The notes under the pieces were generated by a model that saw nothing but the letters and a program-made list of their open reading frames with translations, did no database searches and was not told the origin of the DNA. A DNA stretch of 40,223 bases from a virus. Each line of letters opens with the position of its first letter. The stretch's first letter is position 1. The translations under genes and the position numbers were made by a program. The DNA lies in IMG/VR virus record IMGVR_UViG_3300025108_000135, positions 1-40,223 of that record; one strand, given 5' to 3'. Positions 100 to 36,945 of this stretch are shown piece by piece.

Positions 100-107
100 A
101 TAAATAT
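100..107 (-). promoter_or_regulatory. ATATTTAT motif, candidate late promoter
   Basis: The motif reads ATATTTATATAAAA on the minus strand, directly after the helicase stop. It is 82 nt before the ATG at 18. Unlike most copies it is separated from that start by a terminator hairpin at 62-90. Confidence 0.5.
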
Positions 108-111
108 GACA

Positions 112-1467
112 TCATCCCAATGTTCCGCCTAGATCTTTAAACTTTTGCGCAAGATTTTTTTTCACAATATTTTCTCCCGTTTTCATTACCTGAGTCGTTT
201 GCTTTCCTTGTGCAGTTTGTGGCTCAAAGAATTGAAATTGTCCATTATTTGTATTTATTTTACATGGCAACGTTATTCCGTCAGGACCAAATCTATTTTT
301 AATTACATGCCCTCTACCAGTACCTGACATTTTATCTTCTACTTTTCTAGAAAGCGACATTAAAAAGTCTGCTACCATTACTTTACCATATGATGACGCA
401 ATTTTGTCGGCTTCAATAACATCTTCTTCTAATGCAGATCGACCTGCTTGCGATGCTGTCCATACTGGTATGTTATATTCACCAGCCATACCTCGCATTT
501 CTTCATATAATTCTTCTAATGCTTCATGTTTGTCTTTTTTGGTATTTACCTTTAAAAGATCTCCGTAATCTATAATAATTAGATCTGGATTATTTCCTAG
601 CATTATAGTTTTCTCTATATGAGCTTTAATACCAATAACTCCTATAGATTTAGTTGGATAATGTTTTATGACCAATTCGCCTTTTAGTTTATCCATTTTA
701 TCTTGAATATCTTCTTGATAATTTTTTAGATTTTGTGCGTTAATGCCTGTTACTACTGAGTCATATCGTTGTCCTACATAATTCTCATTGAGTTCTAATG
801 TATAGTGAATAACAGTTTTACCAGCTTTTACTGCATTTGCTCCTATATTAATAAGCAACCATGATTTACCAATACCAGCTGGTGCCATTACTACTCCTAA
901 TTCTCCTGGGGCAAGACCGCCATCCATTAAATCGTCAATAACATCCCAACCAGTTGTCATGGTATCTCGGGCTGCTTCGTCATAACGTAAAGACACAGTA
1001 TCTTTATACTCTAATCCTATATCAGTATCTGCACCAGCTTTCATAGCACCGTCAATTTTGCTTTTAATTTCGTCATAATTACCCATTTTAAGTAATCCGA
1101 CACTATCCATTATTGCTCTTTTAATTTCTTGATTCTTACAAAACTTGAGTATTTCGTCTTTAACAAATGTTAAATCGTCTGACTCCATATATCTAAAAAC
1201 GTCTTTGAGTTGTTCTAATATGGCGGTCTTAAGCACATCATTTTCTATACCAGTAACTTTAACTTTTAATACGTCTTTTGTAGGGGGTGTTTTATATTCT
1301 CGAAAATGGTCTAATATAACTTCTAATAGCCAACTATTAGCATCTGACTCAAAATAGTCTGCTTGTATAATATCAGTAATTTGCTGTAAAAATACTCTAT
1401 CTGTAAACATTGCTGCTAAAACTTTTACTTGAAAGCTCCAACCGTATTCACTTAACTTATCTGTCAT
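112..1467 (-). CDS. DnaB-type replicative DNA helicase (T4 gp41-like)
   Basis: This is a probable ring-shaped ATPase that unwinds DNA at the phage replication fork. Of its 451 residues, the N-terminal 150 or so are helical, as in the DnaB N-terminal domain. The RecA-like core has a Walker A motif APAGIGKS at 195-202 and a Walker B motif PDLIIIDYGD at about 294-303. WTASQAGRSALEE further on fits the DnaB motif that contacts DNA. It is the last gene of the operon SSB-RecA-FEN-helicase, 34 nt after the FEN gene, and an intrinsic terminator follows. The family call is firm; whether it works like gp41 or like DnaB is inferred. No primase domain is fused to it. Confidence 0.9.
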   Translation of the reverse strand: MTDKLSEYGWSFQVKVLAAMFTDRVFLQQITDIIQADYFESDANSWLLEVILDHFREYKTPPTKDVLKVKVTGIENDVLKTAILEQLKDVFRYMESDDLTFVKDEILKFCKNQEIKRAIMDSVGLLKMGNYDEIKSKIDGAMKAGADTDIGLEYKDTVSLRYDEAARDTMTTGWDVIDDLMDGGLAPGELGVVMAPAGIGKSWLLINIGANAVKAGKTVIHYTLELNENYVGQRYDSVVTGINAQNLKNYQEDIQDKMDKLKGELVIKHYPTKSIGVIGIKAHIEKTIMLGNNPDLIIIDYGDLLKVNTKKDKHEALEELYEEMRGMAGEYNIPVWTASQAGRSALEEDVIEADKIASSYGKVMVADFLMSLSRKVEDKMSGTGRGHVIKNRFGPDGITLPCKINTNNGQFQFFEPQTAQGKQTTQVMKTGENIVKKNLAQKFKDLGGTLG

Positions 1468-1501
1468 ATTAGATAATAATAAAAATTATAATAAAATCAA
1501 A

Positions 1502-3731: not shown

Positions 3732-4514
3732 CTACTTGTTAAATAAATCGTTAAATGCTGATGCTACATCTGTTTGCTTTTCTTCGGTCTTTGTTTCCGT
3801 AGTTGCATTATTAGTGCTAGATGTATCTGTTGTTGAGCTAGATGATGTGCTAACGTCTGAACTGTCATCGTCTGGATTCATCCAATCTTTAAGAGCTTGT
3901 TCTAACTCTTCATAAGTTGGTTCTGGGAAGATATCAGTGATAGTTGGCTGATTCATAATCTTTTCTGCAATTGCTTTGTCTTCAGTTGCAGCTGATGTAT
4001 TAGGTTTAACACGAATAGCAGTTTTAGGATATCCTCCACCTTCTGCTGGTGTAAACTCTACGTCGATGTCACGACCATTTAATAGATCGGTGATATCACC
4101 ATAATCTGGATCAGATACAATTGAAAGCAATTCAGTGTAAATTGTTTTGCCAAATCCCCAAAATTTAACTCCTTCAGATTCTTTACCTCTTACGATAACC
4201 GGAACATATGTTCTCATTTTAGGTTCGATTTTACGACCCATTAGCCATTCATCTTTGTCACCAGTCTTTTTTAGTTTTTCTGCAAATTCAACTACTGGAT
4301 CTGCATTACCGAATGATACCGGTGATAGCATTGATCTTTTAGCAATGTCATAATGAAAATACAATTCTAAGAATGGATTATCTTTGCGATGAACATACGG
4401 CACGATTCTTACACGTGTCTTACCAGCTTCTGGTTTCCAAAGATTGTTTCGACGATCGTTGTTGTTGTTTAATTGATTAAGTTTTGCCTTGATGGCGTCT
4501 AAATTAAGTCCCAT
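3732..4514 (-). CDS. Single-stranded DNA-binding protein, gp32-like, no zinc site
   Basis: It coats single-stranded DNA during replication and recombination. The N-terminal part is Asn-rich and basic (NNNNDRRNNLWKPEAGK). The core has the gp32-family segments VRIVPYVHRKDNPFLELYFHY and SPVSFGNADPVVEFAEKL. A Ser/Thr-rich linker leads to a short tail ending SAFNDLFNK, the usual acidic protein-interaction tail. T4 gp32 binds zinc through Cys residues; this 260-residue protein has no Cys, so the zinc site is absent. It is the first gene of the replication operon, with AAAAAAAGGAC as ribosome-binding site. No ATATTTAT motif precedes it, in line with early or middle expression. Confidence 0.85.
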   Translation of the reverse strand: MGLNLDAIKAKLNQLNNNNDRRNNLWKPEAGKTRVRIVPYVHRKDNPFLELYFHYDIAKRSMLSPVSFGNADPVVEFAEKLKKTGDKDEWLMGRKIEPKMRTYVPVIVRGKESEGVKFWGFGKTIYTELLSIVSDPDYGDITDLLNGRDIDVEFTPAEGGGYPKTAIRVKPNTSAATEDKAIAEKIMNQPTITDIFPEPTYEELEQALKDWMNPDDDSSDVSTSSSSTTDTSSTNNATTETKTEEKQTDVASAFNDLFNK

Positions 4515-4620
4515 TTAAGTCCTTTTTTTGTTAAGTTATTAATTTATGTTATTTATTAATTATATATTAGATAATTAAATCGTTAAGTCCAAGTAATTGT
4601 TTAAATTTTTTATTATTTTT

Positions 4621-5523
4621 TTATAAGCCTTGTTTGCTTAGATATTCTTGTATCCACTGATCATTTATTCCGTATTTATCAGCAATATCGTCGTCTTGTA
4701 TATCAATTGATATAACATCACCATCTGCATCTAACATAATTGTGATATCAATTTCATCGTTATTAATATTTATACTACAATCAAATTTTATATCAGACAC
4801 CATTCGTGTTATGTCAAATCTAGAACCACCGTCAATATTATTGTCTTCAATATATGCTTCAATATCTCCTAGAGTTTCTTCTACAAATTGAGAATCTAAT
4901 ACGCCACTTTTTTGAATAGACATATTTGAATAGTTTAAATCAACTTCTGCATAGTTAACTATAATGTCTATATTTTGCGTTTGAGAATTTCTACCTATTA
5001 TTTGTAAAATTTTAGCTACATTGGGATTAGTATTAATAGAATTTACTATTTTATATGCTTTAAGTGGTTTTTGCTGTTTAATAGCTAGAAATGCTCTATG
5101 ATTACCATCCATAACTTCGCCGTTACTATCTATTGTAATAGGAGGCATTTTTGATAGGTCTACGTTTCTAGGATCTGAATCTGTGTCTCTAAAATATTTG
5201 TCTACTTTACCATCAATATAGTCTTGATATTTTTTTTCTCTATCTTTCATTACTTGAGGATCTAATTTAAGATCAGTATGATTGATAGATACAGGTTCTT
5301 CTAGTTTAAATTTATCTATATTAAAAATAAATCTTTTAAATTCAGCGTATGAATCATTTTTATAATTATAATCTAATAATTCTTTTTGTTTAGGAAACAT
5401 CTGAATCAATAAATCATGAATTTGTTTCGCCTTAACTGGATCACGCAAAACATTACCTATCTGATTAAAATCAGATTTTGTCATTTGGTTTTCAGTTAAA
5501 AGTAATGTTTTTAATCGTATCAT
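4621..5523 (-). CDS. ParB/sulfiredoxin-like domain protein
   Basis: The function is unknown. Residues 127-160 read PPITIDSNGEVMDGNHRAFLAIK and onwards. This matches the DGxHR core of ParB/sulfiredoxin-fold proteins (Asp139, Gly140, His142, Arg143), which bind nucleotide and in some phages act as nucleases or modify proteins. The first 90 residues are helical and charged. The C-terminal 100 residues are rich in Asp, Ile and Asn, without a motif I know. An ATATTTAT motif lies 22 nt upstream. It sits between the polymerase/nuclease cassette and the replication operon, so a role in DNA metabolism is possible but unproven. Confidence 0.55.
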   Translation of the reverse strand: MIRLKTLLLTENQMTKSDFNQIGNVLRDPVKAKQIHDLLIQMFPKQKELLDYNYKNDSYAEFKRFIFNIDKFKLEEPVSINHTDLKLDPQVMKDREKKYQDYIDGKVDKYFRDTDSDPRNVDLSKMPPITIDSNGEVMDGNHRAFLAIKQQKPLKAYKIVNSINTNPNVAKILQIIGRNSQTQNIDIIVNYAEVDLNYSNMSIQKSGVLDSQFVEETLGDIEAYIEDNNIDGGSRFDITRMVSDIKFDCSININNDEIDITIMLDADGDVISIDIQDDDIADKYGINDQWIQEYLSKQGL

Positions 5524-5544: not shown

Positions 5545-5552
5545 ATAAATAT
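5545..5552 (-). promoter_or_regulatory. ATATTTAT motif, candidate late promoter
   Basis: The motif GATATTTATTATATATAA lies between the 127-residue ORF and the ParB-like gene, 21 nt before the ParB-like start codon. The spacing agrees with the copies before structural genes. Confidence 0.6.
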
Positions 5553-5942: not shown

Positions 5943-7184
5943 TTATCCCTGTCCTTGTATGTATTCATATCCTTGAGATGATGGTATATTTTTCTGCACA
6001 AATCTATATCTACCCTGCGACACCACATCAATAGCAAAATCTTCAGCTAGACCAATATGTGGTTGTGGGTTTCTATAATTATACCAAATTAAACCTAATA
6101 TACTATTAAAGAATGTGTTTTTAATAGTATTTAAATCAAATAAAAAGTTTTGTGGGTTTTTTATAAATTCATGTCGTTCTACACGCTTAAACCATATAAC
6201 AATATTTGAATTAACATCATCAACAGGATCACCAACAAAAACGTCAGCTGCAGTATCTTCGCCGGCTGATAACTCTATTTCTTCTACATCTTCATCAGAT
6301 ATCCAATATGACTTTTGCTTTCCATCGGTATTAACCGTTAATCTTGTATCTTTTACTGTTGTATCTAAATTTGTTTTATAGAATACGTCATGTAATTCTT
6401 TGAATCCTTCATACCAGTTATGCATTGCTGATTTTTTCCATTCAAATGATGCTAATTTATCTGGGTCTATAACTGACTCAAATCTTGTTTCAAATATACG
6501 AATTAGTTTTTTTAAATCTTCTGCGGATTCTGGATTTACTAGATGTTTTAATGATTGATATGGATCTCCAATTTGTGAAACTGGTACAACTATATCTTTA
6601 TAAAAATCTTTTATTTTGTTTGTTAATGCATATTTTGATGAAAGACCTGCTTTTGCAGGGTCAAAATTTCCAGACTTTAATTCTTTAACTTCCCATTCAC
6701 CTGCAGGCATAACAATATCATGTTGTGCGGTACCGCCTGGCATCGACTCTTTAACTCCTAATAGAATTGATATTTCACCATTACCCATTCCTCCGCGAGC
6801 ACCGCCGACATTTACTAAAAAGAATTCTTTAAATGCTTTCCAACCCTCAGCTACGAATGAATCTATACTATGCTTTCTGAAATTATTATCAAATAATACT
6901 CGATCATCATTATTTAAACTGTTATATACAGCCATGATTTGATCTACTACCGGTGCTGGTAATTTTAGTTTGTTAGTTAATACAGATTCAACGTCTAAAA
7001 TATTTGATTCATCTTCTTGTTCAGACAATCCTTTGGCTTTTCGGATAATTGCCATTCGCTCTGTTTCAGATAAATCAGTCATTTCAATTAATACACGATC
7101 TAGTTCTTGATAATCTGATTCAGAGTCGGGATATCCTTTTGGTAATCGATATGTCCACTCTGTAATTAAAGAATTTATATTCAT
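5943..7184 (-). CDS. Possible PD-(D/E)XK nuclease-fold protein
   Basis: The role is uncertain. Residues 128-170 hold GGARGGMGNGEISILLGVK, then HDIVMPAGEWEVKELKSG. This fits the PD-(D/E)XK arrangement: a helix Glu (Glu137), an Asp (Asp156) and an E-x-K strand (Glu165, Lys167). Phage proteins with a 'G-GE ... G-D ... EVK' layout are, from memory, usually assigned to this nuclease fold. The rest, including an acidic segment near 310-330, shows no motif. The start overlaps the stop of the polymerase-like gene (ATGA), and an ATATTTAT motif lies inside that gene's end, so it can be expressed both with the polymerase and alone. A structural virion role cannot be excluded. Confidence 0.5.
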   Translation of the reverse strand: MNINSLITEWTYRLPKGYPDSESDYQELDRVLIEMTDLSETERMAIIRKAKGLSEQEDESNILDVESVLTNKLKLPAPVVDQIMAVYNSLNNDDRVLFDNNFRKHSIDSFVAEGWKAFKEFFLVNVGGARGGMGNGEISILLGVKESMPGGTAQHDIVMPAGEWEVKELKSGNFDPAKAGLSSKYALTNKIKDFYKDIVVPVSQIGDPYQSLKHLVNPESAEDLKKLIRIFETRFESVIDPDKLASFEWKKSAMHNWYEGFKELHDVFYKTNLDTTVKDTRLTVNTDGKQKSYWISDEDVEEIELSAGEDTAADVFVGDPVDDVNSNIVIWFKRVERHEFIKNPQNFLFDLNTIKNTFFNSILGLIWYNYRNPQPHIGLAEDFAIDVVSQGRYRFVQKNIPSSQGYEYIQGQG

Positions 7185-8503
7185 AACGTAATTGTTCTCA
7201 TTTTATCATAAATATCGCCAACTTTACATTTCACCGGAAAATTCCCTTGTTCTAACAAGTTTTTTAATTCTGGTAAAATACTCTTAGCTTCTGATAAAGG
7301 AACATCGAATAATACGGAGTCATATGTATATAATATTATACATGTTTTGTGATCTTGTAAATAGTCTTGAAGTTGTGATAATTTATTAACGGATACTTCT
7401 GTTTCAGTGGCTTGTAAATAATAATTAAACAATTTAAATGAAGTCATATTGGTAACTTGATCTTTGCATATACTGCGACCAATAATCGGCGTTTTTACGC
7501 ATCCATTACGTTTCCACTTATCCCATAGGTTAAACACAAAATCATTTACTTGCTGAAAAAATGGAATACTTAAAAACTCTTTGTCAATACCTCCATATAA
7601 AAGACGAAATGTTATTGATTTGCTTTCATTTCTTTGTTCATCTGTTAATGCATCTGTGCCAAAATAGAATTGGCCGAGATAATCATGTATACTTGTTTCA
7701 GGTAAATTATATCCGATTAGTTTTGCAATTAATCTAACATGATAACTATCAAAATCCATTTCAATTAAAGCACCATTATCAAAACGACTACAAAATGCAG
7801 ATCTAGTACCATCTTCTTTGTTCATAGCCGCATAATTGAATCCGCCGAATGCGTTACTTGGCCGGCCAGTGGTGGTATGATAATTATATTGCGAATATAC
7901 CATATTGTCACTAACCTGATCAGGAAATTTAAAATTACTATTAACTTGTAATCCATTACTTTCTATTTGAGCAAATGTTTTAGGATATAAATTGTTAAAT
8001 TTTAAATATGAATCAGTTAATTTTGCATTCATACACATTGGCCAAGAATAATGTCGTATCTTTTGACACATTGCCAAATGTTGCTGCATTGGAATCACTG
8101 CATTTACCTCTTTAAGAGATTTCAATCTTCTCCAATAAAATTCATGTGCTGCAGTTGGATAGTGATTCTCATCATATGCTTCATTATACGTGTACCACCA
8201 TAAACTCTTAACGTCCCATACGGCATTGTTTCCGCCCGATTGTAACCATCGCTTCTTGTCGTGGATAAATATATCAGTTAATGATAAGAACTGTTCTACG
8301 TATTCGGGAAAGCCCCTTATTTGTTCAGTGTGATGAATTGGGATTATCCATTCACTCTCATCTTCACAATAAACGTAGATTGCATATATATCTTGAATAC
8401 ATGTATGTGATGTTGAGTTTGCATAGATAGGAACTAGCAATGTCTTGCAATCTGCAATTATTTGCAAACACTTTGTTACATCAGATTCATAGTCCACTAT
8501 CAT
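7181..8503 (-). CDS. Compact family A DNA polymerase-like protein
   Basis: The C-terminal half carries the family A polymerase motifs. TTGRPSNAFGGFNYAAM (211-227) matches TGRLSSxxPNLQNIP. Motif A is DFDSYHVRLIAKL with catalytic Asp250. Motif B is RNESKSITFRLLYGG with Arg291, Lys295, Phe299 and Tyr303 all kept. Motif C is YTYDSVLFDV with Asp395. Two positions are odd: the steric-gate Glu of motif A is His255, and the HDE of motif C is Tyr-Asp-Ser. Residues 20-60 align by eye with the start of a 3'-5' exonuclease domain but lack its acidic metal ligands. At 440 residues it is far shorter than a full Pol I. It is coupled to the nuclease-like gene by an ATGA overlap. Both catalytic Asp are present, so it could be active. 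Confidence 0.8.
   Translation of the reverse strand: MIVDYESDVTKCLQIIADCKTLLVPIYANSTSHTCIQDIYAIYVYCEDESEWIIPIHHTEQIRGFPEYVEQFLSLTDIFIHDKKRWLQSGGNNAVWDVKSLWWYTYNEAYDENHYPTAAHEFYWRRLKSLKEVNAVIPMQQHLAMCQKIRHYSWPMCMNAKLTDSYLKFNNLYPKTFAQIESNGLQVNSNFKFPDQVSDNMVYSQYNYHTTTGRPSNAFGGFNYAAMNKEDGTRSAFCSRFDNGALIEMDFDSYHVRLIAKLIGYNLPETSIHDYLGQFYFGTDALTDEQRNESKSITFRLLYGGIDKEFLSIPFFQQVNDFVFNLWDKWKRNGCVKTPIIGRSICKDQVTNMTSFKLFNYYLQATETEVSVNKLSQLQDYLQDHKTCIILYTYDSVLFDVPLSEAKSILPELKNLLEQGNFPVKCKVGDIYDKMRTITL
7208..7215 (-). promoter_or_regulatory. ATATTTAT motif inside the polymerase gene end
   Basis: The motif GATATTTATGATAAAA lies within the last codons of the polymerase-like gene, 23 nt before the start of the nuclease-like gene. 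The spacing matches the intergenic copies. Because the bases also encode protein (GDIYDK), chance cannot be excluded. Confidence 0.4.
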
Positions 8504-11572: not shown

Positions 11573-13078
11573 TTAGCCCCTTGCTGCATTTCTTTCTTCT
11601 CTTCTTGCGTCTTTTTCTAGTCGTTTAGCATCTGCCTCGGCTTGGCTTTTAGCTATTTTTGCTAATTCATCGACACTTAATTCTGCATTATTCCTAGTAT
11701 CACTTAACCAATTGTCATTTCCTGGTAGTGGTAGTCCCGAATCACCATCGAATCGTTTAGCCAATGAATAGAACTTGCCTCCTTTTTGCGGTAACCAATC
11801 TGTGATAGGTGTTACTGTCATATTAACGTCTACCTTATGTGGTGTTTGCATCATCTGTGGATCTTGTTCTATGTTAGTTTCCCATGTTGTATCTGCACTA
11901 TGTAATGTGTAATTAACACTTTTTACTATCACTGCTTGTTGATTGAATAAGTCTCCTATAGTTATACGCATCCATGGGCCTACTAGTGCAATATTATCTG
12001 TGGTATATTCTGGTGCGGTATATCCGGCCAATGCATTTAATTTTCTCCAAATTGGTTTAACTTCATCTCTGTCTGTTGCATACACAGTAAAATCAATTGA
12101 TATGTCTCTGGTAAATCCGCCATACTGAAAATTTTGATCTCCCCTACCTATAAGTTGAAATCCATTCCATGACGCATTGAAGCTATCAGAAATCGAACCA
12201 ATTACTGCACGGAAAACTATGATATCGTCTTCCTCGGTAGTGTTCCCGGCATGAAGCTTAGGTCCAGTAAAGAAAAACTTTATAAGATCTGCTGTTGTTC
12301 CGACTTTATCAAAAATCGCCGCATCTCCAAATATTTTAGGTTTAGGCAACCATCGATATGCATCTTTTAATTCTCGTTGACTAAAATCTATAACATTGAC
12401 TTTATCACCTCGGAATGGTGTTGCTTTAGATAATAGGTTTTTAGTAGGAATCCATGATCCTGGATCTTGTTTATAGTTACCTGGGCCAGATTCATCTGTC
12501 GACACATCGTTTACAATACCAGGAGACCATTGAGTAGCTACATGACTTTGTGCTGTAAAATCATTTCTCAAAGCATATGGATTATCATGATCTCCCCAAC
12601 CATACAATGTTTGCAAGTTAAATATAGAATATGGACCATACGGAGAAATAGATGTAGCAGAATATAATCCGGAGCGAATTGCATTTTTATTATTACCAGC
12701 ATCTGAGCGATCGAATAGTGTTCTTTGCGATACCGCTAATCCGTCTACTCGTTTTGTTGATAATGCAATTGCAGTATCTACTCCCTCTTTAGGGAATTTT
12801 CTTGCTCTGAAGTCTGGATATTGTATTCCAACATTATTAGTTGACTTTAAAGCATTAACGGCAGATACAGCATAAGCAGATTTAGGAGAATAATTTTCTG
12901 AGCTATTAGTAAAACTTTGTCCAATTTGAGCTACTTGCGGTATTCCAGATAAACTACCAATTGCGCCTACGGCAAACCCTGTTGCTTTTTGAGCTAAACT
13001 ACCTAGAGTGATATTTGTGGTTTTAGCTTGTAGCGGAGTCCATTCTGCTGCATTTGGATATGTAGTATTAGTTGGCAT
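11573..13078 (-). CDS. Tube-fold baseplate protein (gp48/gp54 position)
   Basis: The 501-residue protein lies directly after the tape measure gene, where T4 has gp48 and gp54, the proteins that start the tail tube. The segment from VIGSISDSFNASWNGFQLIG to FTRDISIDFTVYATDRDEV, and later WMRITIGDLFNQ and VKSVNYTLHSADTTWETNI, looks like the beta-rich fold of tube-initiator proteins. The C-terminal 40 residues are a charged helix rich in Lys, Glu and Ala. The start overlaps the tape measure stop (TAATG). The role is inferred from position and strand pattern; the sequence alone does not prove it. Confidence 0.6.
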   Translation of the reverse strand: MPTNTTYPNAAEWTPLQAKTTNITLGSLAQKATGFAVGAIGSLSGIPQVAQIGQSFTNSSENYSPKSAYAVSAVNALKSTNNVGIQYPDFRARKFPKEGVDTAIALSTKRVDGLAVSQRTLFDRSDAGNNKNAIRSGLYSATSISPYGPYSIFNLQTLYGWGDHDNPYALRNDFTAQSHVATQWSPGIVNDVSTDESGPGNYKQDPGSWIPTKNLLSKATPFRGDKVNVIDFSQRELKDAYRWLPKPKIFGDAAIFDKVGTTADLIKFFFTGPKLHAGNTTEEDDIIVFRAVIGSISDSFNASWNGFQLIGRGDQNFQYGGFTRDISIDFTVYATDRDEVKPIWRKLNALAGYTAPEYTTDNIALVGPWMRITIGDLFNQQAVIVKSVNYTLHSADTTWETNIEQDPQMMQTPHKVDVNMTVTPITDWLPQKGGKFYSLAKRFDGDSGLPLPGNDNWLSDTRNNAELSVDELAKIAKSQAEADAKRLEKDARREERNAARG

Positions 13079-24362: not shown

Positions 24363-24370
24363 ATAAATAT
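24363..24370 (-). promoter_or_regulatory. ATATTTAT motif before the large fibre gene
   Basis: The motif TATATATTTATATAAAAAG lies 23 nt before the start of the 498-residue fibre, in the short gap after the 135-residue gene. It opens the fibre module. Confidence 0.65.
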
Positions 24371-26548: not shown

Positions 26549-27772
26549 CTATCCTACATATATTTTTAATGGAACTTTTCCTAATATTTCCATTTGTTGT
26601 GTTGCTTCTGTGTTTTGCCTTGTTAACATCTGTTCTTTAGTTAACTTGTCTAAAAATTCTCTAAGTTGTGTTATCAATGCTTCTTTTTCAGACTGTCCTT
26701 GTGTCACTAAATCACTACCATTTAAGGTTACTTCTCCATTTGGTATTGGAACTGACGAATATTTATTACGTACATATCCCAATGTCTCTTTCACAATGGC
26801 AGATGCATATCTATATATCCAACTACGGCCCATATCATTAATGTTAGCGTATTTTTGATATGAATATGGTATATTAGATGCGTCTGACACTACTCCGTTT
26901 AGAAGTGCGCTATTCCCAAATAACACACCGCTATTAGTTTTATCTTTTTCATATATAAATTCAAACCAAACCTTATCATAAAATGGAGTAGATATTGTTC
27001 CCTGAGTACCAGGTACTGGATATAATTTAATGTCATCTCCATGAATCTCAAAAGAAAATGCTGATTTACGTATACGATCATTAAACTCAATACCTTGTAT
27101 ACGGAACAAATCCATATGTAATGGCATCATCATAAAGTTTACACTAGGAGAAAATCCACCAAAGTCAAATGCATCCATCATGTTTTGTGAACCCATACCT
27201 GTTCCTACAAATGGATCAAAGTATCTAACAATTGCAGGAGGTGGTGCATGAAGTACTCTACGTATCTCAACGCCGTTATTATCTGTTATATCTACTCCCA
27301 ATGATGCAGATACGGCATCTCTAATACTATATGTTTGTTTGCCGTCGACAACATCAATTGATGCACTATACCAACGCACATCACCACCTGAATCTGCTTC
27401 TGTTCCATATGCTTTTGATAGTCTGGTTATGTAGCTTAAATTACCTCCTACTAATGCTCCGGTGAATCCGTCATTAGTTAAAAAATCAGATCCGGTTTCA
27501 ACACCTAATGTATTTATTAAATTATTAACAATATTAATTTGATTTACTTGATTAGAATATTCAATAACAGCAGCTTCAAAAGCTGTATAGAAATTTATAT
27601 CTATTAATTCAACATCCATAATCGGATATCCAACGTTATTTGCAGCAAATTGTGCAAAGCTGTCAGCTTCCGCTTGGAATGATGTATCAGTATCAAAGAA
27701 ACCAAATGGAGTTTTTCCGGGGCTAAATGAAGAGCTTCCGGGCCATATTGGTTTATTTTCTGAGTAGTCCAT
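26549..27772 (-). CDS. Neck protein (gp13-like)
   Basis: The 407-residue protein begins with the motif WPGSSSFSPGKTPFGFFDTD, then FQAEADSFAQFAANNVGYPI and AAVIEYSNQVNQ. These segments are familiar from gp13-like neck proteins of aquatic T4-type phages. The middle has the Met-rich stretch SVNFMMMPLHMDLF, and the C-terminus a charged helix (EALITQLREFLDKLTKEQML). It lies directly before the gp14-like gene and 15 nt after an ATATTTAT motif. The gp13 assignment is by pattern and order; a search would confirm it. Confidence 0.7.
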   Translation of the reverse strand: MDYSENKPIWPGSSSFSPGKTPFGFFDTDTSFQAEADSFAQFAANNVGYPIMDVELIDINFYTAFEAAVIEYSNQVNQINIVNNLINTLGVETGSDFLTNDGFTGALVGGNLSYITRLSKAYGTEADSGGDVRWYSASIDVVDGKQTYSIRDAVSASLGVDITDNNGVEIRRVLHAPPPAIVRYFDPFVGTGMGSQNMMDAFDFGGFSPSVNFMMMPLHMDLFRIQGIEFNDRIRKSAFSFEIHGDDIKLYPVPGTQGTISTPFYDKVWFEFIYEKDKTNSGVLFGNSALLNGVVSDASNIPYSYQKYANINDMGRSWIYRYASAIVKETLGYVRNKYSSVPIPNGEVTLNGSDLVTQGQSEKEALITQLREFLDKLTKEQMLTRQNTEATQQMEILGKVPLKIYVG

Positions 27773-27786: not shown

Positions 27787-27794
27787 ATAAATAT
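27787..27794 (-). promoter_or_regulatory. ATATTTAT motif before the neck genes
   Basis: The motif GATATTTATTATAAAGG lies 14 nt before the gp13-like start and overlaps the last base of the PhoH stop codon. The ribosome-binding AAAGG follows directly. Confidence 0.65.
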
Positions 27795-28473: not shown

Positions 28474-28749
28474 TTAACTTAATTTTGTGAGTGTTGATTG
28501 TCTGTAAGATAGATCTGTTAATGTTTCTATCTTGCCTAAACAAATTTGTCGAATTGCGTCAAATGTTTGTTTTGGAGGATATGGACTTAGAATTTTAATT
28601 TTAATTAATTCTTTTTTTGGTCCTAAGTCTTTTTCTATATGTACCATTAAAACTAAACGTATAGCTCGTATACGGTCTAATACATCTACTAGTCTACCTT
28701 CATATCGAATATCAGCAAACATTTCGTATTTTATTCTTGGAACTGCCAT
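28474..28749 (-). CDS. Small protein downstream of the capsid gene, function unknown
   Basis: The 91-residue protein begins MAVPRIKYEMFADIRYEGRL and has DVLDRIRAIRLVLMVHIEKD, then IKIKILSPYPPKQTFDAIRQ. The strand-helix-strand pattern could be a small alpha/beta fold, but I recognise no family. Its own ATATTTAT motif lies 17 nt upstream and the capsid terminator precedes that, so it starts a new transcription unit with PhoH, 14 nt on. Confidence 0.65.
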   Translation of the reverse strand: MAVPRIKYEMFADIRYEGRLVDVLDRIRAIRLVLMVHIEKDLGPKKELIKIKILSPYPPKQTFDAIRQICLGKIETLTDLSYRQSTLTKLS

Positions 28750-28765: not shown

Positions 28766-28773
28766 ATAAATAT
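28766..28773 (-). promoter_or_regulatory. ATATTTAT motif after the capsid terminator
   Basis: The motif GATATTTATATAAAAAAG lies 16 nt before the start at 28749. It is four bases after the conserved ACTGTT that follows the capsid terminator. Confidence 0.7.
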
Positions 28774-28864: not shown

Positions 28865-30535
28865 CTAAAGAGTCTCTAATCCTTTGACATATACTTTTCC
28901 GTAGAATTCTGGACGAACTACTTTCTTCGCGTAACGTGTCATAACACCTTTACGTGGAGTGAAGTTTACCGGATCGTATACCAATGGAGTCATGATAAGA
29001 GGTACGTATGGAGAGAAAACTGCTCCAGTCTCAAGGAATTGTGCTCCTCTGAATCCCATTAGGATTACATTCTCTTTCATGTATGGGTTTTTGTAAACTG
29101 TGTAACGGTTATTGATTGCACCAATCTTTTGTACACCAGCTGCAAATTCCATTTTATTTCCATCTGTGTCTGCAGCAAATCCAGGAATAGATTCTAGGAT
29201 AGTTGCCACTGCTGGAGATGTTACTAAGAAGTTAGCACCACCACGCAATGTTTTTTGATGAATTTTATTTGAAACTTTTTGCAGTTTAGTACCAAGAGTT
29301 TGGAACCATCCGCCTTGAGTGTTATAGAACCCACCATTGCCAACTGCAGCTGCAGCGTCAAATGATGTACCGTTCCAGAACTCATTGTTTACTGCTGACC
29401 AATACTCAGTAGTTGGTGCAGAAGAAATCAACATATCAAGAATCTCTAAATCAATTTCCATTGATACATACTCAGACAACATTGAAGTCAATTCTGCTTC
29501 AGCATCGATTGAGTGGTAAGCGTTAAGATCTTGAGCAAACTCAGGAGTCCAAACAGCTTTTAGTTTTCTTGTCTTAGCAACGATTGGCTCAGACTGAAGT
29601 TCCAAGTTAACTTCTGGAATGTCAATGTCTGTTCCATCATCGATACCAGTACCAGCACCAGATCCTTTAAACGGATTAGCATCTTCAAAGTCACCTCTTG
29701 TAATATCGGTTGGAGCTTTGCTATAGTTAAGATCCAAGTTATTAGCAACGATTGCATCATTAATTCCAGCAGCTAATGAAGCAGTTACAACGAATGATGC
29801 AGTAAAGTCAGAGTCAATAGTTGAGAATGCTTGTACAGGAATAATTTCTGCGTTATTAGACCCAGATGCCAATGTAAATGATCTAACAGCTAATGGATCA
29901 GCGTCAGTAGGTACATTAACTTCTAATACAAAATACTGATCAGAATTTGCAGTGTAAAGTGAATCAAAGTTTAATGATGCACTAGATGCTGCAGCTGCAG
30001 CGGCACCAGAACCAGTAGTAGCAGTTACGTCTGTAGCCACTACGTTAGGGATTGAATATCCAAAACGACCAGCACCATAAAGACCACCTGATGGGTCACC
30101 TGATGTATTAGTTACACCAAACATAGAATCGTCAGCTTCTGGAGAACCGAATGGGTGTCCATCACCTTCTGCATTATCATCGTCAAATCCTGGACGAGCT
30201 GTACCATATTTAAAGTCTAAGTAAAATACTAGACCTGATGGCAAGTTCATTGGTTGAACAGATACAAATTCTTTTGCTGCAAATTCAGCAAAGATTCTTC
30301 GTACCAATGGAAGAGCAACTCCTGCCCATTCCTCAGAACCTGCTGCTGTACCTGTAGCAGATGATTCTTTTACTAATTGTCTTGCTTGGTTTTCAAGCAA
30401 TGTAGCCATTCCGGCTTTTTCTGTCTCGTTTGAGAGACCTTCTAGAAGACCTGTCTTTTCCCATTTAGAAACGTGTGCTTTTACAGCTGTTCTTTGAGAA
30501 GCGTCAGGACTTTGTAATAATGAATTAAGACTCAT
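28865..30535 (-). CDS. Major capsid protein (gp23-like)
   Basis: It builds the head shell. The 556 residues (T4 gp23 has 521) contain AGMATLLENQARQLVKESS near residue 45, then EWAGVALPLVRRIFAEFAAK and PMNLPSGLVFYLDFKYGT, all typical of the gp23 family. Near the C-terminus, FSPYVPLIMTPLVYDPVNFT and GVMTRYAKKVVRPEFYGKV follow the same pattern. It lies directly after the scaffold gene, as 22-23 in T4. The N-terminal region before the shell domain is probably removed by the prohead protease; the cleavage site was not located. A-rich leader with AAGGA upstream, no ATATTTAT motif of its own. Confidence 0.93.
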   Translation of the reverse strand: MSLNSLLQSPDASQRTAVKAHVSKWEKTGLLEGLSNETEKAGMATLLENQARQLVKESSATGTAAGSEEWAGVALPLVRRIFAEFAAKEFVSVQPMNLPSGLVFYLDFKYGTARPGFDDDNAEGDGHPFGSPEADDSMFGVTNTSGDPSGGLYGAGRFGYSIPNVVATDVTATTGSGAAAAAASSASLNFDSLYTANSDQYFVLEVNVPTDADPLAVRSFTLASGSNNAEIIPVQAFSTIDSDFTASFVVTASLAAGINDAIVANNLDLNYSKAPTDITRGDFEDANPFKGSGAGTGIDDGTDIDIPEVNLELQSEPIVAKTRKLKAVWTPEFAQDLNAYHSIDAEAELTSMLSEYVSMEIDLEILDMLISSAPTTEYWSAVNNEFWNGTSFDAAAAVGNGGFYNTQGGWFQTLGTKLQKVSNKIHQKTLRGGANFLVTSPAVATILESIPGFAADTDGNKMEFAAGVQKIGAINNRYTVYKNPYMKENVILMGFRGAQFLETGAVFSPYVPLIMTPLVYDPVNFTPRKGVMTRYAKKVVRPEFYGKVYVKGLETL

Positions 30536-30567: not shown

Positions 30568-31602
30568 TTACTTTAAACCCGCTAGTTTCTTCCAACGGTT
30601 GGCTTGTTCGAAGCCTTCAGTTAATACCTGAGTTGTTTCTTTACTTGGAGCAGTAGTAGCTACTGGACGAGATGCCATTGATTTTGATTCTTTAACAATT
30701 TTCTTTCCTGCCTTTGGCGTTTGGAATGATTCTGCTAAAGTACTAAATACTAGTTTTGCTTCTCTTGTATTAGCTGCTCTGTCAAAGTTTTCGATCACTT
30801 TCATTTTTTGTGATTCGCTCAACTCAAAATTTCGGAACAATTTGTTTGTGTAAAGAAGTTTTGCATTTAAAAGATTAACTTCATTAATAACTGATTTAAG
30901 ATGTTCTACTGTTTTATAAGCTTCTTCAAGCTCTTCTTTCAGTCCTTCATCTTTTGCCTCATCTTTAGAATCAGCCATTTCACCAATTACTTCTTCTTCT
31001 TCTGCTTCTACTTCTTCTTCTGCTAAGATTGCTTCAATGAGTTCTTCAATTGAATTATTAGATTCATATATACCTTCTTCAACGTCTGCTTCGTTATACA
31101 TACCTTCTTCAACGTCTTCTTCGTCGATACCTGCAGCAGCTGCATCTGAATCTAAATCTTCTTCAAGCTCTCTAATGATTTCTTCAAGATCCATGTCGTC
31201 ATCATTCATGTCGTCAGCCATGTCGTCAGTCATTTCCATTTCTGGTGACACGTCGTCTGTTTCAGCTGGAAGCATATCATCCATGTCTTCTTCATCATCC
31301 ATACCAATTTCACCCTCTAGATCATAATCACCGTCATTGTCTAAATCGACAGCAACACCAACCATATCTGGAGTTTCGTCAGCCATGTCTGAATCCATAT
31401 CCATGTCATCCATACCCATTTCTACCTCTTCGCCATCTACCATGTCTTCATCTTCTAATTCATTCATTAGTTCGTTTTCGAGCATGCTTTTGATTCTAGG
31501 TTGAAACGCTTCTTGAAGAGCAATCTTCGCATTAGCTAATGCAGTTTCTTTAACCGCCTTTGCGTCAGCAATCGCTTCTTTTAGCAAATCTGATTTTGCC
31601 AT
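30568..31602 (-). CDS. Prohead core scaffold protein (gp22-like)
   Basis: The 344-residue protein is the inner scaffold for capsid assembly. Its first 35 residues are a helix, the middle (about 45-225) is extremely acidic with many Asp, Glu and Met, and the C-terminal part (YKTVEHLKSVINEVNLLNAK onward) is helical and ends EQANRWKKLAGLK. That layout and the place between protease and capsid fit gp22. The acidic part holds one DLDNDGDYD motif, like the motifs in the ORF at 33585, and a short tandem repeat (DVEEGMYNEA / DVEEGIYES). The start has AAGGAG and a 100-nt leader. Confidence 0.8.
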   Translation of the reverse strand: MAKSDLLKEAIADAKAVKETALANAKIALQEAFQPRIKSMLENELMNELEDEDMVDGEEVEMGMDDMDMDSDMADETPDMVGVAVDLDNDGDYDLEGEIGMDDEEDMDDMLPAETDDVSPEMEMTDDMADDMNDDDMDLEEIIRELEEDLDSDAAAAGIDEEDVEEGMYNEADVEEGIYESNNSIEELIEAILAEEEVEAEEEEVIGEMADSKDEAKDEGLKEELEEAYKTVEHLKSVINEVNLLNAKLLYTNKLFRNFELSESQKMKVIENFDRAANTREAKLVFSTLAESFQTPKAGKKIVKESKSMASRPVATTAPSKETTQVLTEGFEQANRWKKLAGLK

Positions 31603-31702: not shown

Positions 31703-31710
31703 ATAAATAT
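31703..31710 (-). promoter_or_regulatory. ATATTTAT motif before the scaffold and capsid genes
   Basis: The motif lies inside the inverted repeat CCTTA-TATTTAT-TAAGG, about 100 nt before the scaffold start and just after the terminator at 31729-31761. It is the only copy that can serve the capsid gene, so it should be one of the strongest. Confidence 0.7.
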
Positions 31711-31782: not shown

Positions 31783-32031
31783 TTAATCGTCTCGATGCAT
31801 ATCTTTAATTTTCTGGATATACTTTGCTTTAATTAGTTTTGCTCTATGTTTTACACTAGGTTTAGTAAATGTACGATTTTCTTTAATATGTTCTAATATT
31901 CCAGAATTCTTTACTTTGCGTTTAAAATTCTTTAAAGCAAATGCAAGATCTCTATCGTCTTTACCTGTTACGGAAACAGCATTTGCATTTCCTGGTACTA
32001 TGCTTTTATGGTACTTTTGGTTTCTACTCAT
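31783..32031 (-). CDS. Ribosomal protein bS21 homologue
   Basis: The 82-residue protein has the bS21 core: DLAFALKNFKRKVKNSGILE, then IKENRTFTKPSVKHRAKLIK and AKYIQKIKD. bS21 sits near the anti-Shine-Dalgarno end of 16S rRNA and takes part in start-site choice. The C-terminal pattern KPSVxxRxxxxxAxYxQ with Tyr71 resembles bS21 of Bacteroidota rather than the Arg-rich E. coli form, from memory. The first 25 residues are an additional N-terminal stretch. Phage bS21 genes are known from other aquatic phages. It lies in the head gene block, just before a terminator, so it is expressed with late genes. No clear ribosome-binding site. Confidence 0.82.
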   Translation of the reverse strand: MSRNQKYHKSIVPGNANAVSVTGKDDRDLAFALKNFKRKVKNSGILEHIKENRTFTKPSVKHRAKLIKAKYIQKIKDMHRDD

Positions 32032-33583: not shown

Positions 33584-33584
33584 T

Positions 33585-34199
33585 TTATTCTCCTAATGAT
33601 CTAACTCGCTCTGATATTTTAATTAATCGCTCTGATATTTTTCCTAATGCCTTGCTAGTACTAGGACCAAATCCAGAATGTGATATTCCTGATTCTGTTT
33701 TTAATCGACTAGTATATTTAATAGTTTCTTCAATTTCTTTCAATTGTTTAGCTACATTTTTAATAGATGCATTTACTTTTTTAGCAGGACTCATTTTAGG
33801 ATCACTCAATGCAAATGTTTTATAGCCTTCGATAAGACGCTCATATTTATTATCCATTGCTTCCTGGACTCTTTTATATCCTAATGCTTCAACAGTGTCA
33901 TCATCAGCTTTACCAAATGCTTTAGGCGTCATATATGCCCCAGCTCCTGCAGATGTAGAAATTTCTTCTAACTCATCTTCATCTTTATCGCTCAATGCTT
34001 TCTTCATTGACTCTTCAGTATCACCGTCGTTATCAAAATCTAAAAAATCAGGCTTAGCAGCTTCATTTTTTTCTTTTGCTGCTTTTTTCATTGACTCTTC
34101 AGTATCACCATCGTTATCTAAATCTAAAAAATCTGGTTTTGCTTTTTTTTCTTCGAGTGACTGAAAGCTTTCTTCTATTTGTTTTAAAAATGATTTCAT
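33585..34199 (-). CDS. Prohead-core protein with DxDNDGD repeats
   Basis: The 204-residue protein has two copies of KPDFLDxDNDGDTEESMKKA, at about 21-40 and 49-68, encoded by an 80-bp direct repeat. The core DLDNDGDTEE resembles EF-hand or dockerin calcium loops. The scaffold protein carries one similar motif. The C-terminal half is helical and basic (ASIKNVAKQLKEIEETIKYT). The location between portal and protease is where T4 has gp67 and gp68, small prohead-core proteins, so that role is likely. It overlaps the preceding gene as TAATG and ends 1 nt before the protease start region. Confidence 0.65.
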   Translation of the reverse strand: MKSFLKQIEESFQSLEEKKAKPDFLDLDNDGDTEESMKKAAKEKNEAAKPDFLDFDNDGDTEESMKKALSDKDEDELEEISTSAGAGAYMTPKAFGKADDDTVEALGYKRVQEAMDNKYERLIEGYKTFALSDPKMSPAKKVNASIKNVAKQLKEIEETIKYTSRLKTESGISHSGFGPSTSKALGKISERLIKISERVRSLGE

Positions 34200-35047
34200 T
34201 ATTGTATCCTATTTAATTCGTCAATTAAGTCCATATAACGCATTAATGATACGATATGGGACTCATTTAAACGTTTCATAGTTTCAACATTACAAAGCAT
34301 CTCTGAGAGTCGTGTGACCTTAATTTGTGTTACTTTGTCTGTTATGTGTTTAGAATGTTCTGCTAATTTATTTTTTAATGATGGTATTATATCGGATATA
34401 TATTCTTTTAATGCTTCGGTATCATTAACATTAGTAATATATTTATTTAACAATTGTTTCTGAGATTCTGACAATCCTGAATATTTTTCGTTAAATTTAT
34501 CAATCATTAACTTATATGTTAATAGACGTGTATCTTTTTCTTGTTTAGAGAATTCTTCAATAACAATATCTTTTTGTGTTTCTGATTTTCGTTCTATTAA
34601 TGTGTGCTCTAATACAGCATTTTTACATTCCATTAATTTTTTAGGATTATCAGAATCTTTATATTCAAACAACATGTATATTGATGCTAATGCTTTGTAA
34701 TTATTAATATGTATTTTAGAAATACGCTCAAATATAAAATTTTCAGATATTTCTTTAACTAGATTATATCGTTGTCTTTTTAATGTGCTCTGGTTGAGTC
34801 GGCTATATGATTCTCTAATAGTTCGCATAAATTCTAATGCTCTTGCTTCAGATTTATGTTGTTCTTTAATTAGTGAATTATATAAATTAAGTTCTTTTGA
34901 TAGTTCTGTATTTTTACCGAAATATTTTTTAATAATATCAATTGTTACTGTTTTATCAGATGACATTGTTTCTGATGTAAGTTTCCTTACAAGCATCTCA
35001 AATAAGATGCCGGTGTTTTTATATTTCGAATGTTTTAATTTTTTCAT
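34199..35047 (-). CDS. Conserved-looking head-region protein, function unknown
   Basis: The 282-residue protein begins MKKLKHSKYKNTGILFEMLV and is helical and rich in Lys, Glu, Ile and Leu (ARALEFMRTIRESYSRLNQS, LKNKLAEHSKHITDKVTQIK). I remember a similar KHSKYKNTGILFE start in proteins next to portal genes of aquatic T4-type phages, with no known function. No catalytic motif or membrane segment is present. The start lies 27 nt after an ATATTTAT motif; the end overlaps the DxDNDGD gene. A prohead-core or assembly role is inferred from position. Confidence 0.65.
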   Translation of the reverse strand: MKKLKHSKYKNTGILFEMLVRKLTSETMSSDKTVTIDIIKKYFGKNTELSKELNLYNSLIKEQHKSEARALEFMRTIRESYSRLNQSTLKRQRYNLVKEISENFIFERISKIHINNYKALASIYMLFEYKDSDNPKKLMECKNAVLEHTLIERKSETQKDIVIEEFSKQEKDTRLLTYKLMIDKFNEKYSGLSESQKQLLNKYITNVNDTEALKEYISDIIPSLKNKLAEHSKHITDKVTQIKVTRLSEMLCNVETMKRLNESHIVSLMRYMDLIDELNRIQ

Positions 35048-35073: not shown

Positions 35074-35081
35074 ATAAATAT
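35074..35081 (-). promoter_or_regulatory. ATATTTAT motif after the portal gene
   Basis: The motif TATATTTATTAATAAATAAA lies 26 nt before the start at 35047, in a gap of 42 nt after the portal gene. It can start transcription of the core and protease genes. Confidence 0.65.
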
Positions 35082-35089
35082 AGACAAAT

Positions 35090-36919
35090 TTATAAAATAT
35101 TGTTTTCATCTAACATTGTTCCCGAATCCGTGTCTTTTGTTTCAGGATTTAGTGTTTCTGCTATAATTTTTTGTCTTTTTTGATTCTTAAAATAATTTAA
35201 AACATTTTTTTGTTCAGATGTCATTGATAGTTTTCTTTGACGTACATCTGGTTGAAATGCATTTGTTTGATTTTTTATATTAAATGCTTGATCTAACGTT
35301 TTCTTACCAGTTGGATCCCATCCAAATTCATTAGCGTGTTGGCCTGATTTAATTCCTTCTTTAGGTCGACCGCCTTTATCTTTTTCCTCAACATCGTCAG
35401 AGCTCATATGCATTGACGCTAAGTCGTGTGGTGTTCCATATGATGTACCTGTTATAGTCGGATCATTGCCTTCTTGTTCAATTTGATTTTGACGGAAACG
35501 TAATTTTAAATCTTCAATAACATTGGTTCTTTCTTGTAACCATTGTTCTTCGGACATGTTAAATATGTATTCATATATGTATTTATCTGATACTAATTTA
35601 CTATCTTTCATTGTATTAGCAAGTTGTATTTTTTCATTCATTAATGCAACTTTTTGCTGATCATATATAATAGACGGAGATGTTAATGCTAAGTCAAAAT
35701 TAATTAAGTCTTCGCCTTCATATCCTTGTGATGCTAAATGTACGATTGCAATTTTATAAAGTTCAGATGTTATAATTTTTTGAATTCGTTCAATTGTTCT
35801 AGCAAAACGAATATCCATGGAAGCCAATGATGTTTTTCCTTCAACCCCTTCACTATAACCTAAGAATGGTTTAGGTATTTTTAGAGCAGCCATCATTTTA
35901 TTTTTTACATATTCGATATCTTCAGTACCAGTCCATGTCATACCTGGTAATGTATCTATTTGTGTTGACGACTGTCCTCCACGTACTGGTAAAAAATAAT
36001 CTTCAAGCATATTATTAAGATTAAACTTAAGATTATAATTTCCGGTATTTTGATCTACGTGTGGTATTTTTTTCATCTTATCGATGATTTGTTGCATAAA
36101 TGTGTCTACTTCATTTGGAGGAATATTTCCAATATCAACTTTAAAAATACGTTTTTCTGGAGCTCGCATTATTCTGTGAATAAGCATTGCATCTTCTAAC
36201 ATTGTTAGTTTTTGGAATTCTTGCCTTGCTCCTTCTAACATTGAACGACCATATGGTAAGAAATTTGAATCAGATAATAATCTAAAGTGAGCGATTTCAA
36301 AAACATCATACCACTCTTCGTGAGTTGATAAGTGTTTAAATTTTATTTCATATTCGCCAGTATCGCTATTATATTCTTCATATCGTTCGATCTCATAACT
36401 AGAAAGCGGTCTAGCATTAATTACTCCTAACTCATCAGCAATATCTAGTTTTAAAAAGAAATCACCATATTTTGTCACGTTACGAATCCATGACCACATA
36501 TTGAAATCGATATTCAATATATCATAGAATAGATTATAAAGTATTTTTTGTATTTTACTATCATTAGTTTTAATAGTTAATATATCACCAAATTGATCTT
36601 CTAATGTAGACTCATCCGAATATATGTCTAATGCTGAATGAATAATTGGATCTTTATCCATCATTTCGTAATCAGTATATAACTGCATACGATTTTGATG
36701 CATATAATAATTAGAATCATATCCACCATTCATTCCGCCAATCTTATGTCGATTAGCACCATGTAATCTTGTATATCTATCAGAAATTTTACTCTTTGCT
36801 AAATTTCCGTCTGATTGTAATCTATTAGTATCGAGTACACGTAGTTTGTTGTTTCCAACATTCTTTACAATTATATTTGTACTGAATAGATTTCTTAACC
36901 GTTTTCTTAAAGAAGCCAT
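35090..36919 (-). CDS. Portal protein (gp20-like)
   Basis: It forms the ring at the head vertex through which DNA is packed. The 609 residues show the gp20 layout: YEMMDKDPIIHSALDIYSDE near 84-103, ILYNLFYDILNIDFNMWSWI with RNVTKYGDFFLKLDI, LPYGRSMLEGARQEFQKLTM, then APEKRIFKVDIGNIPPNEVD and FLPVRGGQSSTQIDTLPGM. The C-terminal 100 residues are charged and probably flexible. It follows the terminase gene with a 51-nt gap that holds an ATATTTAT motif. The family is certain from these segments. Confidence 0.94.
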   Translation of the reverse strand: MASLRKRLRNLFSTNIIVKNVGNNKLRVLDTNRLQSDGNLAKSKISDRYTRLHGANRHKIGGMNGGYDSNYYMHQNRMQLYTDYEMMDKDPIIHSALDIYSDESTLEDQFGDILTIKTNDSKIQKILYNLFYDILNIDFNMWSWIRNVTKYGDFFLKLDIADELGVINARPLSSYEIERYEEYNSDTGEYEIKFKHLSTHEEWYDVFEIAHFRLLSDSNFLPYGRSMLEGARQEFQKLTMLEDAMLIHRIMRAPEKRIFKVDIGNIPPNEVDTFMQQIIDKMKKIPHVDQNTGNYNLKFNLNNMLEDYFLPVRGGQSSTQIDTLPGMTWTGTEDIEYVKNKMMAALKIPKPFLGYSEGVEGKTSLASMDIRFARTIERIQKIITSELYKIAIVHLASQGYEGEDLINFDLALTSPSIIYDQQKVALMNEKIQLANTMKDSKLVSDKYIYEYIFNMSEEQWLQERTNVIEDLKLRFRQNQIEQEGNDPTITGTSYGTPHDLASMHMSSDDVEEKDKGGRPKEGIKSGQHANEFGWDPTGKKTLDQAFNIKNQTNAFQPDVRQRKLSMTSEQKNVLNYFKNQKRQKIIAETLNPETKDTDSGTMLDENNIL

Positions 36920-36937
36920 ATGGTATTTTCTTTTATT

Positions 36938-36945
36938 ATAAATAT
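36938..36945 (-). promoter_or_regulatory. ATATTTAT motif before the portal gene
   Basis: The motif TTATATTTATAATAAAAG lies 18 nt before the portal start, between the terminase stop and the portal ATG. No ribosome-binding site is obvious between it and the start. Confidence 0.7.

Follow-up and report, generated by a model that had tools for sequence, protein, structure and literature searches.

The 40,223-bp virus record IMGVR_UViG_3300025108_000135 (the whole stretch of DNA analysed here, hereafter the window) was taken to carry 45 genes, all of them on the minus strand; its GC content is ~33% and its plus strand is T-rich. PHROG matches identify a T4-type gene set of terminase, portal, prohead protease, major head protein, tail sheath, and tail tube, together with a gp25-like wedge protein, UvsX, a gp32-like single-stranded DNA-binding protein, a DnaB-like helicase, and a polymerase piece, and many further genes have no PHROG match. 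Megablast of window positions 1–25000 against phage records gave no match, and isolates were reached by protein comparison; the nearest by major head protein identity are Flavobacterium phage immuto (55.5%), Microcystis phage Mel-JY01 (53.9%; host on record, a cyanobacterium), and Rhodothermus phage RM378 (38.8%). The window virus likely has a Bacteroidota host. An Rfam scan of the window returned nothing at gathering thresholds. Here we analyse a short motif, ATATTTAT, which the initial annotation had listed at 15 minus-strand sites as a candidate late promoter with no −35 box. All 15 sites are present and are given below with one contrasting promoter candidate; fractions are distinct orthologous upstream regions of relatives with TATTTAT, within 55 nt unless another distance is stated.

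36938–36945, minus strand: candidate late-promoter box, 18 nt before the portal gene (35090–36919); 30/30.
35074–35081, minus strand: candidate late-promoter box, 26 nt before gene 34199–35047 (g34199); 33/33.
31703–31710, minus strand: candidate late-promoter box, 100 nt before gene 30568–31602 (g30568), the upstream neighbour of the major capsid protein (MCP) gene, and after a terminator-like hairpin; 29/40 within 130 nt, 0/40 within 55 nt.
28766–28773, minus strand: candidate late-promoter box, 16 nt before gene 28474–28749 (g28474); 52/52.
27787–27794, minus strand: candidate late-promoter box, 14 nt before gene 26549–27772 (g26549; weak head-tail adaptor match, phrog_211); 50/52.
24363–24370, minus strand: candidate late-promoter box, 23 nt before gene 22843–24339 (g22843; weak tail-fibre match); 4/17.
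22338–22345, minus strand: candidate late-promoter box, 90 nt before gene 21012–22247; 6/12 within 130 nt.
20618–20625, minus strand: candidate late-promoter box, 105 nt before gene 20204–20512; present in the one relative tested (gene 100% identical).
19236–19243, minus strand: candidate late-promoter box, 26 nt before the tail sheath gene (16729–19209); 40/41.
16665–16672, minus strand: candidate late-promoter box, 22 nt before the tail tube ATG at 16642 and after a terminator-like hairpin; 41/44.
16049–16056, minus strand: candidate late-promoter box, 23 nt before the baseplate-hub-like gene (15243–16025) and after a terminator-like hairpin; 39/43.
15011–15018, minus strand: candidate late-promoter box, 16 nt before the tape-measure-like gene (13078–14994); 23/36.
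7208–7215, minus strand: candidate late-promoter box, 23 nt before gene 5943–7184 (g5943), within the upstream polymerase-like gene at its 3′ end; 20/22, partly codon constraint.
5545–5552, minus strand: candidate late-promoter box, 21 nt before gene 4621–5523 (g4621); 1/6.
100–107, minus strand: box downstream of the DnaB-like gene, with an intrinsic terminator ~20 nt past it; box in 49/50 distinct downstream regions of relatives.
4562–4592, minus strand: for contrast, a host-type (early/middle) promoter candidate, TTG-N20-TAATATAT, upstream of gp32 (3732–4514); TTG-N18-22-TAnn[TA]T in 33/33 distinct gp32 upstreams.

Read in the direction of the genes, the box has the sequence TATTTAT, and the next base is usually A. 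Of the 23 copies of ATATTTAT in the window, 18 are on the gene (minus) strand and five on the plus strand; none of 100 shuffles reached 23. All five plus-strand copies lie within genes. Minus-strand copies at 8265, 9501, and 15509, missing from the initial list, lie deep within genes, and those at 7208 and 16665 overlap the ends of open reading frames (ORFs). The intergenic set (22 segments, each 15 nt or longer, adding up to 1411 nt; mechanical gene calls) contained 11 sense copies and no antisense copy; in 5000 runs of a Markov-1 simulation, the mean was 0.74, the maximum was 5, and no run reached 11.

The distance from the end of the motif to the start codon is 14–26 nt at exactly the eleven sites claimed (21, 23, 16, 23, 22, 26, 23, 14, 16, 26, and 18 nt in order of position), and past the sites at 20618, 22338, and 31703 the next gene starts 105, 90, and 100 nt further on. 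Three of the listed sites need correction. The copy at 7208 sits inside the upstream polymerase-like gene, and that at 16665 falls within the longest ORF of the tube gene, which probably has its real start at ATG 16642, 22 nt past the box. At 100, an intrinsic terminator stands between the box and the next gene.

We examined 80 loci related to the window by major head protein (74–100% identity), several of which overlap or repeat, so that the set is partly redundant; DNA outside mechanically called ORFs was counted as intergenic. In these contigs, ATATTTAT occurred 347 times in sense and 10 times in antisense orientation between genes, compared with 88 and 92 times within genes. The direction of the box, which the initial annotation had wished to see shown and not assumed, is therefore fixed by the orientation of the genes. 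Sense intergenic DNA of the same contigs contained TATTTATA 239 times and TATAAATA 18 times. A logo was built from 135 dereplicated sites out of 389 picked for TATTTAT, by which choice the core is fixed. It reads ATATTTAT-nnn-AAA, with A before the core in 92% of sites, A after it in 67%, and A at positions 10–12 (first T of the core = 0) in 71, 89, and 87%. From −50 to −3, no position of the 135 sites exceeded ~0.2 bits and no fixed −33/−35 element was seen. Together with the lack of a fixed TTG at these sites, this agrees with the earlier remark that no conserved element is seen 20–30 nt further upstream. A mild T-rich stretch at −12 to −17 of the logo fits terminator tails.

To follow the box before orthologous genes, head-module, DnaB, and sheath loci were searched for the window genes by blastp; the 60-nt upstream regions were dereplicated by exact identity, giving rows that are distinct but not independent. 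TATTTAT was kept before the orthologues of the portal, g34199, g28474, g26549, sheath, tube, hub, and g5943 genes, and less strictly before that of the tape-measure-like gene (fractions as listed above). Conservation at 7208 is partly codon constraint because the box there is also coding. The box was absent before the orthologues of MCP (0/56), PhoH (0/60), g24791 (0/54), g24384 (0/38), g33585 (0/35), protease (0/32), terminase (0/27), S21 (0/42), exo (0/46), UvsX (0/44), and gp25 (0/24), and rare before those of gp32 (2/33), DnaB (3/44), the polA-like gene (1/28), and g26017 (4/53). The case of g32042, before which the window carries TATTTAT but not the first A, is less clear (14/44). Footprint profiles were built only from upstream regions chosen for the box and are uninformative on its conservation. 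These results bear out the proposal that the motif does not precede gp32, recA, or the helicase. That it precedes virion genes held for the genes above, while MCP (28865–30535), protease, and terminase have no copy of their own. The split is that of T4, virion but not replication genes, where "late" is judged by gene family or function and not by expression time. The S21 gene of the window (31783–32031; PF01165), which encodes a homologue of ribosomal protein S21, lies among the head genes and is annotated in Mel-JY01 too.

A simple hairpin-plus-T search within 70 nt upstream found terminator-like hairpins before 28/135 of the family sites, compared with 11/1000 random positions and 2/675 shuffled ones. 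The window had such a hairpin at 3/13 sites. The contrast was weaker in immuto, in which 6/37 box sites and 12/195 starts without a box were preceded by one.

The T4 late box is TATAAATA, with T at −13 and A at −12 (PMC2984593, PMC2988020). Like it, the window box is a single −10-like element without a −35 element ahead of virion genes. The T4 8-bp consensus itself was not found as the sense box, which is TATTTAT(A). The commonest form, TATTTATA, shares 6/8 bases with TATAAATA in the same orientation, A at −12 included, and differs where T4 has AA at −10/−9 and the window clade has TT. The initial annotation had called the motif the reverse complement of the T4 box in many copies. This is literally true where a copy reads TATTTATA; read in sense, such copies nevertheless differ from TATAAATA at two central positions only, and the puzzle dissolves because the gene-direction box is TATAAATA with −10/−9 changed. 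In silico variants appear in the published accounts, NATAAATA in T4-like cyanophages and a/gC at −13/−12 in Aeh1 (PMC2984593, PMC2988020); these show that the consensus of the same box can drift, but as quoted there they keep an AAA centre, whereas the centre is TTA in the window clade. Searches of open-licence papers gave no description of the motif or of immuto transcription among the matches listed.

The strand bias, the conservation before orthologues, the split between virion and replication genes, the lack of a fixed upstream element, and a sigma-like protein in relatives (described below) strongly support in silico that the box is a late promoter without a −35 box, as had been proposed. 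We consider it probable that the motif forms the core of a T4-type late promoter with altered specificity, common to a large clade whose members are distant T4-like phages, and that its reader is most likely a highly diverged gp55-type sigma.

Bacteroidota sigma-A promoters carry a −33 TTG element. Their −7 consensus in a flavobacterial start-site map is TAnnTTTG (PMC9723704). In the 60–78 kb region of immuto, which is made up of small genes, a TTG stands exactly 23 nt upstream of 23/23 TAT[AC]TTTAG boxes (26/30 genome-wide). These 23 early-type promoters are very similar to each other, an AGTTGC-like element being followed by a TATATTTAGGTATC-like one. At late sites, no TTG is fixed: the commonest distance accounts for 3/37 sites in immuto and 7/135 family sites, and the TAnnTTTG −7 box does not appear in the logo, whose sites were chosen for TATTTAT. 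Among relatives of the window, TTG-N18-22-TAnn[TA]T precedes gp32 (33/33), DnaB (42/44), the polA-like gene (28/28), and g20644 (41/45), a loose pattern with a notable background (sheath 13/39, hub 14/43). Gene g20644 (window 20644–20913) is a small gene within the late region and has almost no late box in relatives. Two promoter-like sequence classes are thus found upstream of different genes within one phage group.

The initial annotation had raised the alternative of a modified Bacteroidota −7 box (TAnnTTTG), on which these observations bear; under it, the box would be a sigma-A element and the host holoenzyme, perhaps with an activator, would read the late genes. The nearest isolate infects Flavobacterium, both kinds of promoter have an AT-rich box in the −10 region, and the early boxes of immuto (TATATTTAG) and the late boxes (ATATTTAT) have ATATTTA in common. 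However, the late box has neither the TTG that is invariant at 23 nt in the immuto host-type class nor a final G, the T that would open TAnnTTT reaches only 42% conservation there, and the two classes go with different genes in the same phages. We therefore disfavour this alternative and regard it as improbable.

In immuto, 232 plus-strand starts were typed from gene tables, with the box scored within 70 nt: 37 had TATTTAT, 24 had an early-type promoter, and two had both. The late box was found at 15/42 starts of the 119–160 kb virion module and the early type at none of them; in the 60–78 kb region, the numbers were 3 and 20 of 48. In the first 50 kb of Mel-JY01, ATATTTAT was present in 9/15 called upstream regions and in none in antisense.

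The genes of RM378 run both ways, and its best-scoring upstream 8-mer was TTATTTAA (20/69 regions, 10 antisense). Its sister box TATTTA, seen as TATTTAA and not TATTTAT, resembles the window box in its core, in the A-rich stretch that follows, and in its occurrence before tube, sheath, and portal; it also precedes a ribonucleotide reductase gene at 42 nt. TATTTA was absent before the two polymerases and two helicases checked, MCP, gp21, and the sigma gene. RM378 differs further in having its own annotated sigma factor and no detected gp118 homologue (see below), and in spacing. TATTTA lies within 60 nt of 40/146 coding sequences; in ten of these the distance to the start codon is exactly 7 nt, and in none is it shorter. 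Nine other 6-mers occurred at most once at 7 nt; one of them, TTATTT, which overlaps the box, occurred eight times at 8 nt. Since some rare control 6-mers also lacked closer copies, the argument rests on the pile-up at 7 nt. If TATTTA occupies −13 to −8, the A of the ATG is +1, which suggests that these RM378 mRNAs are leaderless. The RM378 spacing would then support the register independently of T4, and would lend indirect support to a start roughly one helical turn downstream of the box, as at T4 late promoters.

A candidate reader was found in the relatives. The initial annotation had suggested looking for a gp55-like sigma gene; none was detected in the window, but relatives encode a protein with a predicted sigma-like fold, represented by immuto KNV73_gp118 (~232 aa, annotated "hypothetical protein"). 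In a one-genome search, phrog_234 (the T4 gp55 family) matched gp118 at E 0.008. The family was found in 13/17 records (11/13 contigs, immuto as the query, and Mel-JY01; not RM378 or T4), in 3/15 further records, including both of at least 150 kb, and in at least 600 related stretches of a viral scan. Its members keep the stretch FDPxNGAKAYSYF, which is like FDPTKGVKFITFA in the sigma-70-type protein of one related contig (L241). An AlphaFold2 model of a family protein (236 aa, 30 rows) had a mean pLDDT (predicted local distance difference test) of 78.6 and a pTM (predicted template modelling score) of 0.48. In VIA-align, T4 gp55 (7d7c_F) ranked second (Z 9.1, root-mean-square deviation 5.0, 123 aligned of 137), and 49 of the best 50 matches listed were sigma-factor entries, judged by titles, in which we take RPSH, RPSB, and RPSD to be B. 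subtilis sigma names. The best BFVD match to the model (E 0.006) was a protein without a name. Searching PDB sequences with the gp118 profile gave only LSm proteins (E at least 0.06), which were taken as chance matches.

In T4 gp55, A−12 is stacked on Y97, A−9 is held by N13 and H95, and A−8 by T99 (PMC7892883). In an hhalign alignment of low probability, Y97 corresponds to Tyr in 25/25 gp118 members and F86 to Phe in 24/25, while N13 corresponds to Thr in 25/25, H95 to Tyr (20) or Phe (5), and T99 mostly to Gly (14) or Thr (7). This is suggestive only of a −12 pocket that is kept and a −9 pocket that is changed as the box is; the −8 contact varies although A−8 is kept. The family has an extra C-terminal domain of ~100 residues (model pLDDT 88.3). 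No clear fold emerged for it: its best Foldseek match had E 1.3 and its best VIA match Z 6.0 (a domain N-terminal to an integrase domain), with a sigma-H row at Z 3.8, and it showed no profile similarity to phage sigma-70 proteins. From this predicted domain, the gp118 family is a candidate fused late sigma; the absence of such a fused form is raised as a question in a T4 review (PMC2988020). The gp55-like proteins of one lineage (L104–L114, L420–L422) end in …LPF and that of immuto does not; this tail might be a clamp-binding peptide. C-terminal clamp motifs shared between the gp55-like sigma and the polymerase-like gene were not seen. A gp45-like clamp was found in 8/15 records: all six contigs of at least 130 kb, one of which supplied the query, plus G004 and Mel-JY01.

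Several observations weigh against a late promoter read by a diverged gp55. Among the window sites, those before g22843 (4/17) and g4621 (1/6) are poorly kept in relatives. The box at 100–107 is followed by the intrinsic terminator (window 55–90, minus strand), and a terminator-like hairpin is present in 38/49 relatives with this box; an RNA from it would be ~33 nt, and the gene beyond the terminator is presumably ribonucleotide-reductase-like, a name given from reading the sequence. In immuto, 22/37 box-bearing starts lie outside the 119–160 kb module, some of them in tail genes at 78–100 kb, and the antisense form ATAAATA precedes 18/232 starts, eight within the virion module, so that the contrast is weaker than in the clade of the window. 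Genome-wide, immuto TATTTAT numbers 64 sense and 42 antisense, though ATATTTAT numbers 31 and 4; over the 50 kb of Mel-JY01, ATATTTAT numbers 16 and 10. As for the reader, its likeness to gp55 in sequence is marginal: immuto gp118 against the whole of PHROGs gave no phrog_234 match at E up to 0.1, and of 25 members searched, two matched phrog_234 and three phrog_1740. The hhalign probability of gp118 against the gp55 family was 2% (E 0.022), the VIA-align Z of 9.1 falls under the value of about 13 below which matches can be common among helical folds, and the best Foldseek match of the model, a sigma model, was not significant (E 0.45). The gp118 profile had no match in six-frame ORFs of the window, a 40-kb fragment, so that the candidate sigma comes from relatives only. 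Among the records searched for the T4 partners, a gp45-like clamp was not found in immuto or RM378 (15 records), and gp33 (phrog_254) was found only in T4 (16 records). The T4 review describes the gp33 family as poorly conserved (PMC2988020).

A further point against gp55 is the presence of another protein that could be the reader, namely, an unmistakable sigma-70-type phage protein of ~246 aa with regions 1.2, 2, and 4. Sigma70_r2 exceeded the Pfam cut-off in 7/10 related contigs and RM378, and both contig proteins scanned (L241:1456–2196 and L243:1477–2217, minus strand) had regions 1.2, 2, and 4 but lacked a match to region 3. The protein was not found in immuto, Mel-JY01, G005, G007, or G010 (some contigs being fragments), yet all five carry the box, and it has region 4, yet no −35 element is seen. 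With the 246-aa sigma as query, nine records gave no match, in a search without a positive control; phrog_12791 matched T4 only, and the RM378 sigma matched only itself. Because the box occurs in phages without a detected copy, the sigma-70-type protein is less likely to be the reader, and we consider a phage late promoter read by it to be quite unlikely, whereas a divergent gp55 is the likely reader.

A role in RNA, as a translation enhancer or an mRNA processing site near start codons, would agree with the position of most copies, which end 10–29 nt ahead of a start codon and have A-rich sequence after them. Some kept copies, however, lie ~90–105 nt upstream, the major capsid gene has no box (0/56), the box follows terminator-like hairpins more often than by chance, and the RM378 sister box accumulates at a distance of 7 nt from the start and never occurs nearer; we regard such a role as very improbable. 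The AT-rich composition of the window, with its T-rich plus strand, would favour chance occurrence, which is practically negligible in view of the Markov simulations, strand asymmetry, and orthologous conservation.

In the preferred reading, a late promoter read by a diverged gp55, the box would occupy a −10-like position (T at −13, A at −12, TATTTAT(A), then A-rich from −3 to −1) and would work without a −35 element. Transcription would start ~6 nt past the box, giving short leaders before the first genes of virion operons, which would be expressed late. The reader would be a phage-encoded, highly diverged gp55-type sigma (~232 aa; KNV73_gp118 in immuto) acting on host RNA polymerase, possibly helped by a phage sliding clamp as in T4, while replication genes in the same phages would use host-type TTG-N20-TA promoters. 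More tentatively, and with rather low confidence, phages on the Flavobacterium/RM378 side may have their own late code, TATTTA for TATAAA, that arose as the −9 pocket of their divergent gp55 changed, and a naturally fused late sigma. In the latter, a sigma-2 domain would be joined to the ~100-residue C-terminal domain, which would act at the polymerase flap in place of gp33/sigma-4, and gp33 would not exist as a protein of its own.

These results provide a promoter map, at the strength given above, and a candidate late sigma for a widespread T4-like phage group, in which two promoter-like classes stand side by side. The change in the box would amount to a natural experiment on gp55 specificity that involves two bases and a few pocket residues. 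The question of why no fused late sigma has been found, as raised in the T4 review (PMC2988020), would become testable on a real protein.

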